From positions 1-22,636 of the IMG/VR virus record IMGVR_UViG_3300009024_000077: 22,636 bases of DNA; one strand, given 5' to 3'. The notes under the pieces are model-generated. The model was not told where the DNA came from. It did not search any database and saw nothing but the letters and a program-made list of their open reading frames with translations. Below are positions 1,476 to 7,998 of the stretch, piece after piece. Numbering within the stretch: the first letter of the stretch is position 1; the number at the start of each line of letters is the position of its first letter. The stretch is from a virus. Made by a program: the position numbers and the translations under genes.

Positions 1476-1557
1476 TACATCACGGATGTTGTCTTGTTAT
1501 AACTTTGTTATATATTTAGACGTTATATGTCGTGTACTTTGGTTGGAGTATTTCTCG

Positions 1558-1622
1558 CCACGACTTAAAACCGAACTTTAAAACCGAACTTACACCCCGA
1601 ACTTACAGCCCAGTGTTTAAGC
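1558..1622. repeat. 13-bp tandem repeats, CCGAACTT core
   Basis: Three perfect copies of CCGAACTT begin at 1571, 1584 and 1597, exactly 13 bp apart. A degenerate copy precedes them (CCACGACTT at 1558) and another follows (CCAGTGTTTA at 1610). The tails differ (TAAAA, ACACC, ACAGC). The array lies in the non-coding gap between the divergent genes at 1460 (minus) and 1653 (plus). Iteron-like or operator-like binding sites fit, but no binding protein is visible. The rest of the 1461-1652 gap is AT-rich with the two promoters at its ends. Confidence 0.7.
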
Positions 1623-1643
1623 CGCATTGTCATAAAAAGTATT

Positions 1644-1649
1644 TATAAT
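1644..1649 (+). promoter_or_regulatory. -10 box TATAAT before 1653
   Basis: TATAAT ends 4 nt before the ATG at 1653 and 10 nt before a second in-frame ATG at 1659. If +1 falls at the usual 7 nt, transcription would begin between them and favour translation from 1659. This is the one box here whose spacing does not match the leaderless rule. Confidence 0.5.
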
Positions 1650-1652
1650 TGT

Positions 1653-1958
1653 ATGGTTATGACCCCACTAGACCAGCTGAATTTATCAATAGGAATACTC
1701 GTAGGTATTGGATCAATTCTTACAATGCTGGGGGTCGCAATCAGATGGATGGTTAAGCATTATCTAGAGGAAATTAAGCATGAGCTTAAGCCAAACGGCG
1801 GAGGTAGTATAAAAGATCAGGTTAACCGTCTAGAACAAAGACAAGATGCAGCAGACGCAATTAGAAAAGATAATTACTTAAAAATGGAAAAGCTAGAAAG
1901 AAAAATAGATGATCTGTACGATAAAATGATTGAATACTTGTCTAATAGAAACTCTTAA
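1653..1958 (+). CDS. membrane protein with cytoplasmic coiled coil, holin candidate
   Basis: The product is 101 residues. There is one strong membrane span at about 11-33 (LSIGILVGIGSILTMLGVAI), a positively charged exit (RWMVKH), an ELKPNGGGSIKD linker at 44-55, and a charged heptad-rich C-terminal coiled coil to the end. The span, KPNGGGS linker and coiled coil resemble small actinophage membrane proteins of the DUF2746 type, often found near lysis genes. That match is from memory. A holin or spanin-like lysis role is possible but unproven, and the only lysin-like gene in the window is 5 kb away. The start may be M3 (1659), judging from the -10 box at 1644-1649. No Shine-Dalgarno is seen. 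Confidence 0.75.
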   Translation: MVMTPLDQLNLSIGILVGIGSILTMLGVAIRWMVKHYLEEIKHELKPNGGGSIKDQVNRLEQRQDAADAIRKDNYLKMEKLERKIDDLYDKMIEYLSNRNS

Positions 1959-2182
1959 TATAATATATATAATATATAAGTAAATATAAGTAAATTCACT
2001 AAACTCTACTTAGAGATGATTTGAATTAATATATATATAACAATCAACCCTTTTATATAGTAGCAGAAAAAGTAAGTTGTCAAGTCTTTTTTTAATAACA
2101 GTTCTATAACAATATGTTATATAGTAGTTATTTAAAGAAAAGTTCTTATATCTTGATACCCTGTTATCCTTTTGTTACTTTA
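1959..2182. other. AT-rich non-coding stretch
   Basis: This is the first part of the 333-bp gap between 1958 and 2292. It is dominated by TA-rich runs, with a short direct repeat TAAGTAAAT (around 1977-1996) and an imperfect inverted repeat TATAAC-aatat-GTTATA at 2105-2121. No convincing gene or terminator is seen. The low melting stability could suit a replication or promoter region, but there is no iteron cluster here to support an origin. Confidence 0.5.
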
Positions 2183-2191
2183 TGGTATAAT
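2183..2191 (+). promoter_or_regulatory. extended -10 TGGTATAAT feeding a hairpin
   Basis: This is a perfect extended -10 (TATGG lead-in and TATAAT at 2186-2191). The predicted +1 is about 2198, the first bases of the hairpin at 2197-2245. No ORF starts at +1. It is therefore a promoter for a very short transcript, or for read-through into 2292. Confidence 0.65.
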
Positions 2192-2196
2192 ATACT

Positions 2197-2248
2197 AAAC
2201 TGGTACTTAGAATGTCTCTCATACCCACTTTCTAGGTACCAGTTTTTT
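2197..2248 (+). ncRNA. predicted ~50-nt hairpin RNA / terminator
   Basis: Bases 2197-2212 (AAACTGGTACTTAGAA) pair with 2230-2245 (TTCTAGGTACCAGTTT), 16 pairs with a single G-U. They enclose a 17-nt loop and are followed by six Ts (2243-2248). The 3' side is a classic intrinsic terminator. What is unusual is the promoter at 2183-2191, whose +1 lies on the first bases of the stem, so the whole transcript would be one hairpin. The conservative alternative is a terminator for upstream transcripts with a fortuitous -10 beside it. Confidence 0.6.
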
Positions 2249-2276
2249 ATTCCTGAGACTTTATTTATTTTATTGA

Positions 2277-2285
2277 TGTTATAAT
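2277..2285 (+). promoter_or_regulatory. extended -10 TGTTATAAT, leaderless start at 2292
   Basis: TATAAT at 2280-2285 (with TGN before it) ends 7 nt before the ATG at 2292, so +1 is the start codon. It lies just downstream of the terminator-like hairpin and so opens a fresh transcription unit for the appendage genes. Confidence 0.7.
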
Positions 2286-2291
2286 ATATCT

Positions 2292-2678
2292 ATGACATCA
2301 GCATGCGGACCAGAAGTTTTTGGAGCTAATCCTGCCAACATTAAGTGGAACGTCGTAAGAGGCGACACGGCAGTCATTAGAATCCAATTTTTTGAAGACG
2401 ACGAGGCAACCGCTTACGATACCTCCACATGGGATTTTGCAGCATCAGCATATGACTACAAAAACGGTATCACAGATGAACTTGAAATTACTGCAGGTGA
2501 AGGCTACGTAGACGTCGTAGCACCAGCAGACATTACATCGCTATGGGGAGACGGATATAAGAAAACCGTAGCGGAATTGGCTTTTGATCTACAAGTTACA
2601 ATTGATAATGATACCGTCTGGACTCCAGTCATAGGCACTATCTCAGTACTTGGAGACGTTACAGGAGGTAGTTTATAA
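2292..2678 (+). CDS. Ig-like (BppU-N-type) virion appendage protein, copy 1
   Basis: The product is 128 residues and predicted all-beta. It has V-R-G-D-T (22-26) and a W near 47, and ends with W[13 protein letters not shown] (about 109-122). The same frame recurs in the proteins at 3996 (KGDT...GTISVTEQV) and 7597 (VRGDT...GKVVVIEDV). This pattern resembles the immunoglobulin-like N-terminal domain of phage baseplate upper proteins (BppU_N). It is probably a small structural adaptor or appendage subunit. The mRNA is predicted leaderless. Its TAA overlaps the ATG of the collagen-like gene at 2678, with GGAGGT at 2664-2669, so the two are translationally coupled. Confidence 0.75.
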
Positions 2679-3244
2679 TGCCAACAGTTAATATCGTACC
2701 ATTTCCAGGAGCACCTGGAGCTACAGGCCCAAGAGGCTTACAAGGCATCCAGGGTGAAACTGGACTAACGGGACCAATGGGTCTACAGGGCGAGCAGGGT
2801 CCACAAGGAGAGCAAGGAATCCAGGGAGAGTCTGGTGTTTCAGAAATCACTTCGTATATTGTAGGTGGGGGAACAGATGGAGCTCAGCCAACATTTAACG
2901 GAGATCCTCTATTTGCAGGAGAAGCGATTGTTATTGGAGACCTTGTACACTTTACAGTTAATGTAGATTTCGACAACATCACAAACTTCGGAACGGGACA
3001 GTATTACGTAACTTTGCCGTTCAATGCAAGAGATGAGTACTACTTTAGAGACGGACACATTTATGACCAGTCTAGTGGTAAGAGCTATGGTATTTCTGGA
3101 AATGTAAATGCAGGGTCTAGCCAGCTTAATCTTTACTACACCGCTAGTAACGGACAGGACGAGGCGTTTACTCCTACCACACCAGTCTCACTAACAGCAG
3201 AAGATAACTTTCATATTAGCGGAACGTACCTGAAATCTCAATAA
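2678..3244 (+). CDS. collagen-like tail fibre protein
   Basis: The product is 188 residues. After a 10-residue N-terminus come 15 uninterrupted Gly-X-Y triplets (residues 11-55), rich in Q, E, P and T (for example [13 protein letters not shown]). A globular, mostly beta C-terminal domain follows (about 60-188, starting [17 protein letters not shown]). Collagen-like segments of this kind form rigid trimeric shafts in phage fibres. The C-terminal domain would be a trimerising knob or binding head. Only GAP has proline in the Y position, the usual hydroxylation site; other prolines are in X. It overlaps the stop of 2292-2678 by one base and has a strong GGAGGT Shine-Dalgarno inside that gene. 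Confidence 0.85.
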
Positions 3245-3246
3245 TC

Positions 3247-3255
3247 TGAGATAAT
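3247..3255 (+). promoter_or_regulatory. extended -10 TGAGATAAT, leaderless start at 3262
   Basis: GATAAT (3250-3255) with TGA in front ends 7 nt before the ATG at 3262, within the 17-bp gap after the previous gene. No Shine-Dalgarno is present. Confidence 0.6.
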
Positions 3256-3261
3256 AGATAT

Positions 3262-3978
3262 ATGGCAAGTGATGTAGAGTTTCCAATTGTAAGAAAAAAA
3301 TCTCCTTATGAAAAAGAGGCAACACCATCTAAGGGAGCAATTCCCACAGATGGTCCACAGTATATAGCCGTACCAGGTCCAGCAGGCCCACAGGGCCCAA
3401 GAGGAGACATTGGTCCAGCAGGTGCCGAAGGAAAAGAAGGCAAAAAAGGTCCAAAGGGTGAGCCTGGTCCAGCTGGTAAAGATGGCATTAGCTACATGCC
3501 TGTTTACGGACAAGATTCTGGATGGGCAAGATACTCGCACAAAGATCTTAAACAGCTAGCCCTAGGGTCTAATCGTGGAGTAGACGGCTGGGTATCTTTT
3601 TCTGTAGATGGCAATGGTAAAGACACAGTAGAAAAGTTTTTGCCAAGAAACTCCGTATCTTTGTATAACACTTCTGCAAAAAGAATTAATACTAAGCACC
3701 TAGAAATAGGATCACAAGTTTCAATAACTTATAATTTTGATATATCTACACTTTCATCAAATACCGAGATCTGGATTCAAAGTCAGTTTCCAGCATCTAA
3801 AAAAGAATATACATCATTCGTAGCTTTGCTAAAGTATGAGTATGACTACAACTTTTCAGTCACACAGCATCTGACAATAGACAATGAAGCCGACAGGGCA
3901 GACGGTATTTTGCCATTGGTTCGTTCAGACAACAACTGTATCTTTATTCCTAAAAGCATAACTATTTCTGTAAGTTAA
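3262..3978 (+). CDS. second collagen-like fibre protein
   Basis: The product is 238 residues. A ~38-residue N-terminal anchor is followed by 13 Gly-X-Y triplets (about 39-77; GPAGPQGPRG, GKEGKKGPKG) and then a ~160-residue beta-rich C-terminal domain of unknown family (YGQDSGWARY, GVDGWVSFSVDG). Its triplets are richer in K and P than those of the neighbour at 2678, so it is not a simple recent duplicate. GEP has proline in the Y position. It is probably a trimeric fibre or appendage. The start is fixed by the -10 box at 3250-3255, which places +1 on the ATG; the mRNA would be leaderless. Confidence 0.85.
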   Translation: MASDVEFPIVRKKSPYEKEATPSKGAIPTDGPQYIAVPGPAGPQGPRGDIGPAGAEGKEGKKGPKGEPGPAGKDGISYMPVYGQDSGWARYSHKDLKQLALGSNRGVDGWVSFSVDGNGKDTVEKFLPRNSVSLYNTSAKRINTKHLEIGSQVSITYNFDISTLSSNTEIWIQSQFPASKKEYTSFVALLKYEYDYNFSVTQHLTIDNEADRADGILPLVRSDNNCIFIPKSITISVS

Positions 3979-3980
3979 CG

Positions 3981-3989
3981 TGCTATAAT
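3981..3989 (+). promoter_or_regulatory. extended -10 TGCTATAAT, leaderless start at 3996
   Basis: This is a perfect TGC-TATAAT ending 7 nt before the ATG at 3996, in the 17-bp gap after the collagen-like gene. No Shine-Dalgarno is seen. Confidence 0.7.
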
Positions 3990-3995
3990 ACTAGT

Positions 3996-4355
3996 ATGGC
4001 ATTTCCAGGAACTTATAACTTTTCGTACTACAAAGGGGACACCTTTGAGTTTAACGTATACCCCAAAGATTCTGCAGGCAACGTATTTGACCTGACACCG
4101 TATGAATCAATTTTTACTATCTCTACTTCACGTGGAGCAGACGGAGTAGCAAATAGAGTTGTAGCATATAGCTCTGTCCAGTCAGACCACATTCGCTGTG
4201 CAATTACTCCATCAGACTCAGCTGTTCTTGCTGAGGCAACATCATACGTATATGACGTAGAGATTAATGACCTAGATGCTACAGACTACCCACTAGTACA
4301 CACTCTCCTCACTGGCACTATATCTGTGACAGAGCAGGTAAGCGAGGCACCATAA
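3996..4355 (+). CDS. Ig-like (BppU-N-type) appendage protein, copy 2
   Basis: The product is 119 residues and beta-rich. It starts MAFPGTYNFSYYKGDT, then F-E-F-N-V and a D-L-T-P turn, with V-Y-D-V-E near residue 90 and L-L-T-G-T-I-S-V-T near 105-113. This is the same K/RGDT...G-T-I-S-V layout as 2292-2678 and 7597-7998, and the closest of the three to the classical BppU_N pattern. It is probably a structural adaptor. The mRNA is predicted leaderless. Its TAA overlaps the ATG of 4355-4642, as the other two copies overlap their partners. Confidence 0.75.
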   Translation: MAFPGTYNFSYYKGDTFEFNVYPKDSAGNVFDLTPYESIFTISTSRGADGVANRVVAYSSVQSDHIRCAITPSDSAVLAEATSYVYDVEINDLDATDYPLVHTLLTGTISVTEQVSEAP

Positions 4356-4642
4356 TGCCAAATATTGATGTATCAGCTATCGATGTTGTTGTTGTTGGTG
4401 GGGTAACCACAAAGAATGTTGATATCAACTATGGGCCACAGGGAACACGAGGCACTAGAATTTTTGGTATCTCTGCAGATCCAAGATTGGCGACAACAAC
4501 AAAGCCAGACGGTGTAATTCTATTTGACATTGTAATCGTAACATCTCCAGTCGAAGATGATTATAGGGTAATGTACCAGAAGACAGGTCCAGGAACAGAA
4601 GATTGGGCTCAGCTCATTGATCTTAATCTAGGGGCGGTGTAA
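4355..4642 (+). CDS. small virion-associated protein with short GPQGTRG motif
   Basis: The product is 95 residues. The N-terminal beta stretch (MPNIDVSAIDVVVVGG) leads to NYGPQGTRGTRIFG, a two-triplet collagen-like remnant, and then a compact C-terminal domain (DGVILFDIVIV...YRVMYQKTGPG...W). The ending resembles small domains that follow collagen-like segments in phage fibres. It occupies the same place after an Ig-like gene that the collagen-like fibre at 2678 occupies after copy 1, with the same TAATG overlap. It may therefore be a shortened relative of that fibre. Function is not known beyond a likely virion role. Confidence 0.65.
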   Translation: MPNIDVSAIDVVVVGGVTTKNVDINYGPQGTRGTRIFGISADPRLATTTKPDGVILFDIVIVTSPVEDDYRVMYQKTGPGTEDWAQLIDLNLGAV

Positions 4643-6898: not shown

Positions 6899-7495
6899 CT
6901 AGCCAGGAAAGCTAGAAACATTTGATTGTGCTTTTTTATGTGTTGTCCAAGCACCCCAATTGGTTCCACCAGCAGAAATCTTAAAAGCAACTTGAGCATT
7001 TACTAATGGGGTAAACAAGTCTTCATTTTTTTCTAGACCATATTTTTCAAGTCTAGCTGGGCCAAGGCCATCAATCATGTTGATTTGAAAAAGACCATAA
7101 GAGTTATCTCCAGTATTTCTGTTTCTATTGTGAGCATATACTCTAGATGTAGACTCTGCCCTTACAATGGCCCAAGCCATTCGTAAACCGTTACCAGAAA
7201 AACCAGCCTGCTTTAGTACTGAGATAAGCTCAGAGTCGGATAGCATAATTGACTGCATCTCTGGCTTAAGCCATGGGGCTACTTCAACAATTTCTGGCAT
7301 AGCTCTCATAAATCGCTTAGATTCTATTACTATTTCAATAATATCCATTGAGGTAGTGGGAACATTTAGTGTTTGTGTTTTTGGGGTATCTGCAACAGCG
7401 GACAGATCTCCAATCATTGCACATTCTGTCATTCCAAGAAGAATAATTCCTGTGAGTCCTGCTGTTCTTAAAACTTTATTATTGCTAATTACCAT
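6899..7495 (-). CDS. secreted lytic transglycosylase (lysozyme-like fold)
   Basis: The product is 198 residues. N-terminal charges (K7, R10) precede a hydrophobic core (TAGLTGIILLG, 11-21), and AVA-D at 33-36 is a plausible signal-peptidase I site. The catalytic domain (about 100-190) follows the SLT layout: WAIVRAES with candidate catalytic E114, NSYGLFQINM (131-140), NAQVAFKIS and GAW near 180-183. It would cleave the glycan strands of peptidoglycan outside the membrane, as an endolysin or a virion-associated lysin. Length is normal for a small SLT protein. The start has AGGGGGA five bases before it, and that site is buried in a hairpin (7502-7532). It is the only minus-strand gene within the appendage region. 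Confidence 0.85.
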   Translation of the reverse strand: MVISNNKVLRTAGLTGIILLGMTECAMIGDLSAVADTPKTQTLNVPTTSMDIIEIVIESKRFMRAMPEIVEVAPWLKPEMQSIMLSDSELISVLKQAGFSGNGLRMAWAIVRAESTSRVYAHNRNRNTGDNSYGLFQINMIDGLGPARLEKYGLEKNEDLFTPLVNAQVAFKISAGGTNWGAWTTHKKAQSNVSSFPG

Positions 7496-7596: not shown

Positions 7597-7998
7597 ATGG
7601 CCACAAGAAACTCAGGGTATAGCGTTGGTAACGCCCCACCACAAGTAACATGGACGGTAGTCCGTGGAGATACTGCAGCATTCAAGGTTTATGTTACGGA
7701 TGACGCAAAGTCCCCACTGAACATTCCAGACTGGACTATTGACATGGAAATCAAGAGGCCCTCAAGCCCATCTGATGCTGGCGTAATAACCGATGCAGCA
7801 ACTATCGTACTAACTCTAGAGCCAGCCCAAGACCCAGATGATGCAGCAGGAGAGTTTACGGTTTCCCTCACAGCAGCAGAGTCTTCACAGCTAGAAACTG
7901 GGGACATATTTGACATTGAGCTTAGGACTGCACAAGATGCAAAAGTTTGGACTGTTGCCCAGGGCAAAGTCGTAGTGATTGAGGATGTAACAAACTAA
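7597..7998 (+). CDS. Ig-like (BppU-N-type) appendage protein, copy 3
   Basis: The product is 133 residues. It has W-T-V-V-R-G-D-T (19-26, almost the same as NVVRGDT in copy 1), a W-T-I-D-M-E-I-K strand, F-D-I-E-L near 105-109, and V-W-T-V-A-Q-G-K-V-V-V-I-E-D-V-T at the end. This is the most similar copy to 2292-2678 and again the first gene of a two-gene TAATG-overlapping unit. It is a likely beta-sandwich adaptor on the virion. The mRNA is predicted leaderless. Confidence 0.75.
   Translation: MATRNSGYSVGNAPPQVTWTVVRGDTAAFKVYVTDDAKSPLNIPDWTIDMEIKRPSSPSDAGVITDAATIVLTLEPAQDPDDAAGEFTVSLTAAESSQLETGDIFDIELRTAQDAKVWTVAQGKVVVIEDVTN

Follow-up and report, generated by a model that had tools for sequence, protein, structure and literature searches.

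A nearly frozen hairpin loop behind its own promoter points to an undescribed small regulatory RNA in a group of phages

A short intergenic element of a viral genome, in which an extended -10 promoter is joined to a single hairpin, suggests a so far undescribed regulatory RNA of phages, one that would act through its loop: among relatives the stem is freely rewritten, and the loop and the promoter hardly change. The element lies in a viral contig of 22.6 kb (22,636 nucleotides), analysed as a whole and here called the window (table 1). According to the mechanism that we propose, transcription from the promoter (P1) would begin on base one or two of a stem of 13-16 bp that doubles as the RNA's own intrinsic terminator. 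The product would be an RNA of ~50 nt that consists of a single hairpin, lacks a free 5' tail and ends in a short U tail. A nearly fixed loop of 15 nt, GUCUCUCAUACCCAC, with the core UACCCAC, would be displayed on the stem, and during infection this loop may act in trans, either by pairing with a host RNA, the option that we prefer, or by binding to a protein of the host or the phage. On balance, we consider it probable that this is a stand-alone phage small-RNA gene whose RNA acts in trans through the loop, with a target likelier in the host than in the phage. Transcription and termination as drawn, the action in trans and the binding partner are all parts that we infer.

Table 1. The element and its neighbouring features in the window (positions in nucleotides).
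Feature	Position	Strand	Basis
P1, extended -10 promoter TGGTATAAT (TG-G-TATAAT), without consensus -35	2183..2191	+	Sequence inspection; TGn plus TATAAT/TATACT or a one-base variant in 47/47 non-redundant relatives and 73/73 hairpin loci of the loop-blind set
Predicted small RNA, ~50 nt, one hairpin (start and end predicted)	2198..2248	+	Spacing from the -10; R1 match
Stem, 5' arm	2197..2212	+	Sequence, fold, covariation
Conserved loop GUCUCUCAUACCCAC, invariant core UACCCAC	2214..2228	+	Loop-blind loci and alignment
Stem, 3' arm	2230..2245	+	Sequence, fold, covariation
U-run (TTTTTT), intrinsic-terminator-like end; 2243-2245 also paired	2243..2248	+	Sequence
P2, extended -10 TGTTATAAT; the ATG of the leaderless gene follows after 6 nt, at 2292	2277..2285	+	TATAAT in 46/47 and 73/73
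First appendage-cluster gene, phrog_1084 family, 128 aa, adjoining the element	2292..2678	+	Protein family match
Pair of 11-bp tandem repeats, AATAACAGTTC/TATAAC, lying upstream of P1; candidate regulator site	2094..2110	+	Strict pattern upstream of the element in 18/47 relatives

A promoter scan returned no sigma-70-type promoter with a -35 at P1, which is therefore assigned to the extended -10 type. Transcription is predicted to start at about 2198, 7 nt past the -10, on the second base of the stem, in which 16 of 16 pairs are present (one of them G-U, 2207 with 2235) around a loop of 17 nt; the first three T of the terminal run pair with A2197-A2199. RNA folding of 2190-2255 gives -22.2 kcal/mol against -7.5 +/- 2.2 for shuffled sequences (z -6.67; 0/200 shuffles as good), and in this fold a stable stem leads directly into the U-run, as in an intrinsic (Rho-independent) terminator. 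A terminator scan gave no match at the hairpin and missed it because loops longer than the scan's maximum of 8 nt are disallowed there. The -10, the predicted +1, the 16-pair stem and the six T had been named in a preliminary description of this DNA, and the sequence and the fold agree with it. Our covariance model of the element, R1, matches the window copy at 2193-2251 (65.5 bits, E 2.6e-14).

In the first relatives, found by two protein-based scans, the stem differs and the loop, GTCTCTCATACCCAC, is unchanged. A scan of IMG/VR for this 15-mer gave, among the matches listed, at least ~75 loci that are this element. We also assembled a loop-blind set of 80 loci, fetched by alignment of the downstream protein alone, of which 76 have enough upstream DNA. 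P1, the hairpin and P2 are all present in 73 of these 76, and since the loci were fetched with no reference to the hairpin, the arrangement is beyond chance. As a control, 106 other extended -10 sites of the same loci were folded; seven clear a permissive fold cutoff, and no site among the 106 forms a long single stem comparable to that of the element. Exact GUCUCUCAUACCCAC occurs in 42/76 loci, the other hairpin loci having variants such as TTGTCCTATACCCAC, and the variants include GUCUCUCA.. as against UUGUCCUA.. at the loop. The core (TACCCAC in DNA) is kept in all 73 hairpin-bearing loci. Both in the loop-blind loci and in alignment A2 the loop is far better conserved than the stem, and this nearly frozen loop of 15 nt is, as far as sequence comparison can tell, the most telling feature of the element. 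The U-run is among its less conserved parts: at least five U fall within 8 nt past the stem in 38 of 47 relatives, and the run is weaker in nine, so that termination may be poor in lineages such as L009 and L018. Strong R1 matches number one per contig in nine near-full-length contigs and the window, with none in G015. By inspection, the alignment of relatives has no conserved start codon in the loop, and a peptide encoded there was rejected as a candidate, the window frame MSLIPTF* not being kept in relatives. At the level of sequence, the element thus has what is expected of a phage-encoded small RNA: a promoter of its own, a conserved structure and no coding role.

The DNA upstream of P1 has features of its own. 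The 11-bp tandem repeats take the form DATAACNNNNN, lie 57-155 nt upstream of the loop and reach up to four units in L015 and L107; they are a possible regulator-binding array for P1. Many relatives, L009, L124, L144 and L148 among them, have a direct repeat, TGTCCNTTTTGTCC, where the -35 of P1 would lie; the repeat is absent from the window's lineage, and it may replace a -35 or bind an activator. Furthermore, one lineage only (L009, L018, L063, L071, L096, L108, L123, L129, L141, L161, L163) carries a conserved noncoding block of ~115 nt, AGGGAAAGTCCCCCCCTCCCCCCATAGATTT...GTGCAAAGTCCCC..CAAACCC, ~70-190 nt upstream of P1. The block has no Rfam match; it may be another RNA or a region to which a protein binds.

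Covariation was analysed in 47 non-redundant copies, which share a consensus helix of 13 pairs. Compensatory changes on both sides occur in 13/13 pairs and 96.1% of cells pair, a result that 0/500 shuffles reach by any of the measures, and slid controls fall to 31-49% paired. The last base of the -10 lies 3-10 nt before the first consensus pair in 47/47 copies and 5-9 nt before it in 45/47, and for this reason the RNA is predicted to start at the stem. The preliminary description had proposed a dedicated one-hairpin RNA, to be checked in relatives by covariation of both arms and by the spacing from the -10. Both arms covary and the distance is near-constant, which, together with the joint loss of promoter and hairpin described below, lends support to such an RNA at the level of sequence. 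The case in which the -10 is lost and the hairpin retained, which would have indicated a plain terminator, was not encountered; the one hairpin-less lineage has also lost the -10.

Among paired cells, G-T outnumbers A-C by 72 to 1, and selection therefore acts on the folding of one strand, the + strand, which is the strand that P1 would transcribe. This bias excludes a symmetric cruciform rather than proving an RNA, because DNA also tolerates G-T better than A-C. It is accordingly compatible with one DNA strand folding, as in a DNA-level site where a single-stranded hairpin would serve replication or packaging; the single copy per genome and the AT-rich intergenic setting with tandem repeats upstream fit such a site too. 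However, neither a promoter in fixed register nor a U-run is expected of it, and in neither G001 nor G004 does the cumulative GC skew turn abruptly at the element, so we regard it as very improbable. GC skew likewise gave no support to a replication origin. The element could instead be a plain terminator that insulates lysis-type from appendage genes, preceded by a fortuitous -10. The stem and the U-run of most relatives are what such a terminator would have, but a terminator of this sort has no need of a fixed loop or of a -10 at constant spacing, the U-run belongs to the less conserved parts, and the -10 has disappeared along with the hairpin; this we consider extremely unlikely. A more serious alternative is a cis-acting attenuator, in which transcripts from P1 stop at the hairpin until a phage factor that reads the loop permits timed readthrough into the appendage operon, as Q does at lambda pR'/tR'. 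The constant place of the element, immediately ahead of the first appendage gene, speaks for it, as do the U-run of most relatives and the case of L108, where a hairpin with a weaker U-run is directly followed by a gene with a Shine-Dalgarno sequence. Against it, the downstream gene is leaderless, with its own extended -10 directly before the ATG in 73/73 loci, P2 persists where P1 and the hairpin are lost, and the distance from the hairpin to the gene varies (about 70-113 nt, measured from the loop to the gene match). Thus, the terminated transcript, as read from the sequence, would not be the sole source of downstream mRNA, as it is in an attenuator of the lambda type, and we hold this alternative to be unlikely.

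The same loci bear on the status of the element as a gene. P1 and the hairpin have both decayed in L228, L236 and L241 and are likewise lacking in G015, with P2 and the gene kept throughout; a search of the whole 109-kb contig of L228 gave no copy of the element elsewhere. In L108 a 2OG-Fe(II)-oxygenase-like gene, the one with the Shine-Dalgarno sequence, lies between the hairpin and P2. These joint losses and the arrangement in L108 indicate that P1 and the hairpin are kept or lost as a unit separable from P2. The roadblock or attenuator of the preliminary description is therefore weakened, since P2 is present in all hairpin loci, survives loss of the hairpin and can be parted from it by a gene, although the position before the first appendage gene still speaks in its favour. 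An independent RNA gene would fit the sequences better than a leader or attenuator; the element always stands just upstream of the same gene, or one gene away (L108), and with this constant synteny a role in cis would also agree. In the lineage that lost it, the element is not essential.

Returning to an RNA that acts in trans, the contrast between a stem that drifts and a loop that is nearly frozen implies that the partner is conserved. We favour pairing of the loop with a host RNA, as the C-rich loops of 6C RNA suggest by analogy. Twenty phage records share no long complement to the loop elsewhere, and the phages' own translation starts have no conserved site complementary to it; at 58 phage gene starts, mean duplex energies are no better than those of shuffled loops, and 32% of shuffles reach the best observed. 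In the absence of a conserved or shared complement in the phages, the host is the likelier place for a target. E. coli rRNA, used as a stand-in, offers no complement to the loop better than shuffled sequence. Antisense pairing with start codons was rejected, the complement of AUG being missing in the loop variant UUGUCCUAUACCCAC. As a sub-case of the preferred explanation, the RNA might be a decoy or sponge whose loop titrates an RNA-binding protein of host or phage with no RNA pairing at all. A conserved pyrimidine-rich loop on a variable stem would suit this, and so would the finding that neither the phages nor E. coli rRNA offer a conserved RNA complement, but there is no candidate protein, and a comparison of gene content with the element-less lineage yielded no clear partner, only two weak co-lost candidates (G015 may be incomplete). 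We entertain a protein decoy as a tentative possibility.

The carriers are a family of large aquatic phages whose hosts, judging from the phage genes, are most likely actinobacteria (Actinomycetota). Their genomes measure ~105-118 kb and share a core of 55-60 genes, over which the most distant members average ~54-58% identity. The assignment to Actinomycetota rests on two proteins that the phages encode. One is a WhiB-like regulator, a type of protein taken as a mark of actinophages (PMC10202952); the other is a DnaE-type polymerase, which shares 54.6% identity with the one from Streptomyces phage BillNye, of the family Stanwilliamsviridae. R1 found no match in the whole BillNye genome. Among named phages, there is no DNA match to window 1500-4500, only a short weak match to the element, and no tblastn match of the downstream protein. 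Bacterial and archaeal genomes contain no match to P1 plus loop and no relative of the downstream protein, and hence the host is not identified beyond phylum. The appendage cluster of the window includes three proteins that match the uncharacterised phrog_1084 (2292-2678, 3996-4355, 7597-7998). Inside this plus-strand cluster, a protein with a lysozyme-like SLT_3 domain (Pfam PF18896) is encoded on the minus strand at 6899-7495.

If transcribed as predicted, the element would be among the smallest and most uniform of phage RNA genes, with a promoter, a hairpin and a terminator combined within ~60 bp, and it has been maintained among phages whose core proteins have diverged to ~54-58% identity. 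The identity of its partner would reveal a host function on which these phages, probably infecting aquatic Actinomycetota, need to act, and the loop sequence can serve directly as a probe and as the basis for a set of mutants.

Rfam has no gathering-level match in the window, only chance microRNA models appearing at E up to 5. The identical 15-mer GTCTCTCATACCCAC is found in the PhotoRC-II (RF01717) psbA leaders of cyanophages, at no fewer than ~40 loci (e.g., L117:941-1035, L083:1385-1479), where its first part forms a single-stranded linker that is conserved and its last part belongs to a stem. PhotoRC-II is a two-hairpin leader upstream of psbA, whereas the element has a single hairpin and precedes a gene of the phrog_1084 family; RF01717 has no match in the window, the GAGAC of the first PhotoRC-II loop is absent near 46/47 elements, and R1 aligns to PhotoRC-II only at the loop. 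The shared 15-mer is probably a coincidence, which is the default because the match came from a database-wide 15-mer scan that returned unrelated chance matches too. That GUCUCUCAUACCCAC is instead a shared functional RNA motif, a loop here and a linker in PhotoRC-II, with a target common to actinobacterial and cyanobacterial hosts, seems to us a distant prospect.

There are other parallels. In the 6S RNA leader of lambda pR'/tR', ~194 nt long, a terminator likewise comes immediately after the promoter, in front of the late genes, but the same promoter serves the late operon, whereas the gene after our element has its own. The 6C RNA of Actinobacteria (RF01066) consists of two hairpins with runs of C and, like the predicted RNA, is small and has C-rich hairpin loops. 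In M. tuberculosis it is reported to bind mRNAs through these loops (Mai et al. 2019, as cited in PMC9569102). In contrast to 6C RNA, the element has one hairpin, the loop GUCUCUCAUACCCAC, and no Rfam match even at a permissive threshold. DicF, an RNA of 53 nt cut out of a longer transcript, is, like the element, a very short (pro)phage RNA resembling a terminator. This E. coli prophage sRNA comes from the dicB operon and has been described as resembling a Rho-independent terminator (PMC12197685). The element differs from it in having a dedicated promoter that starts at the stem and in that the conserved part is the loop. We found no description of the element in the open-access literature, nor any earlier account there of the combination of a start at the stem, a hairpin as the entire RNA, a nearly frozen loop and one copy per genome. 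The element would thus be a new RNA family of a kind already known, that of short terminator-like phage RNAs such as DicF.
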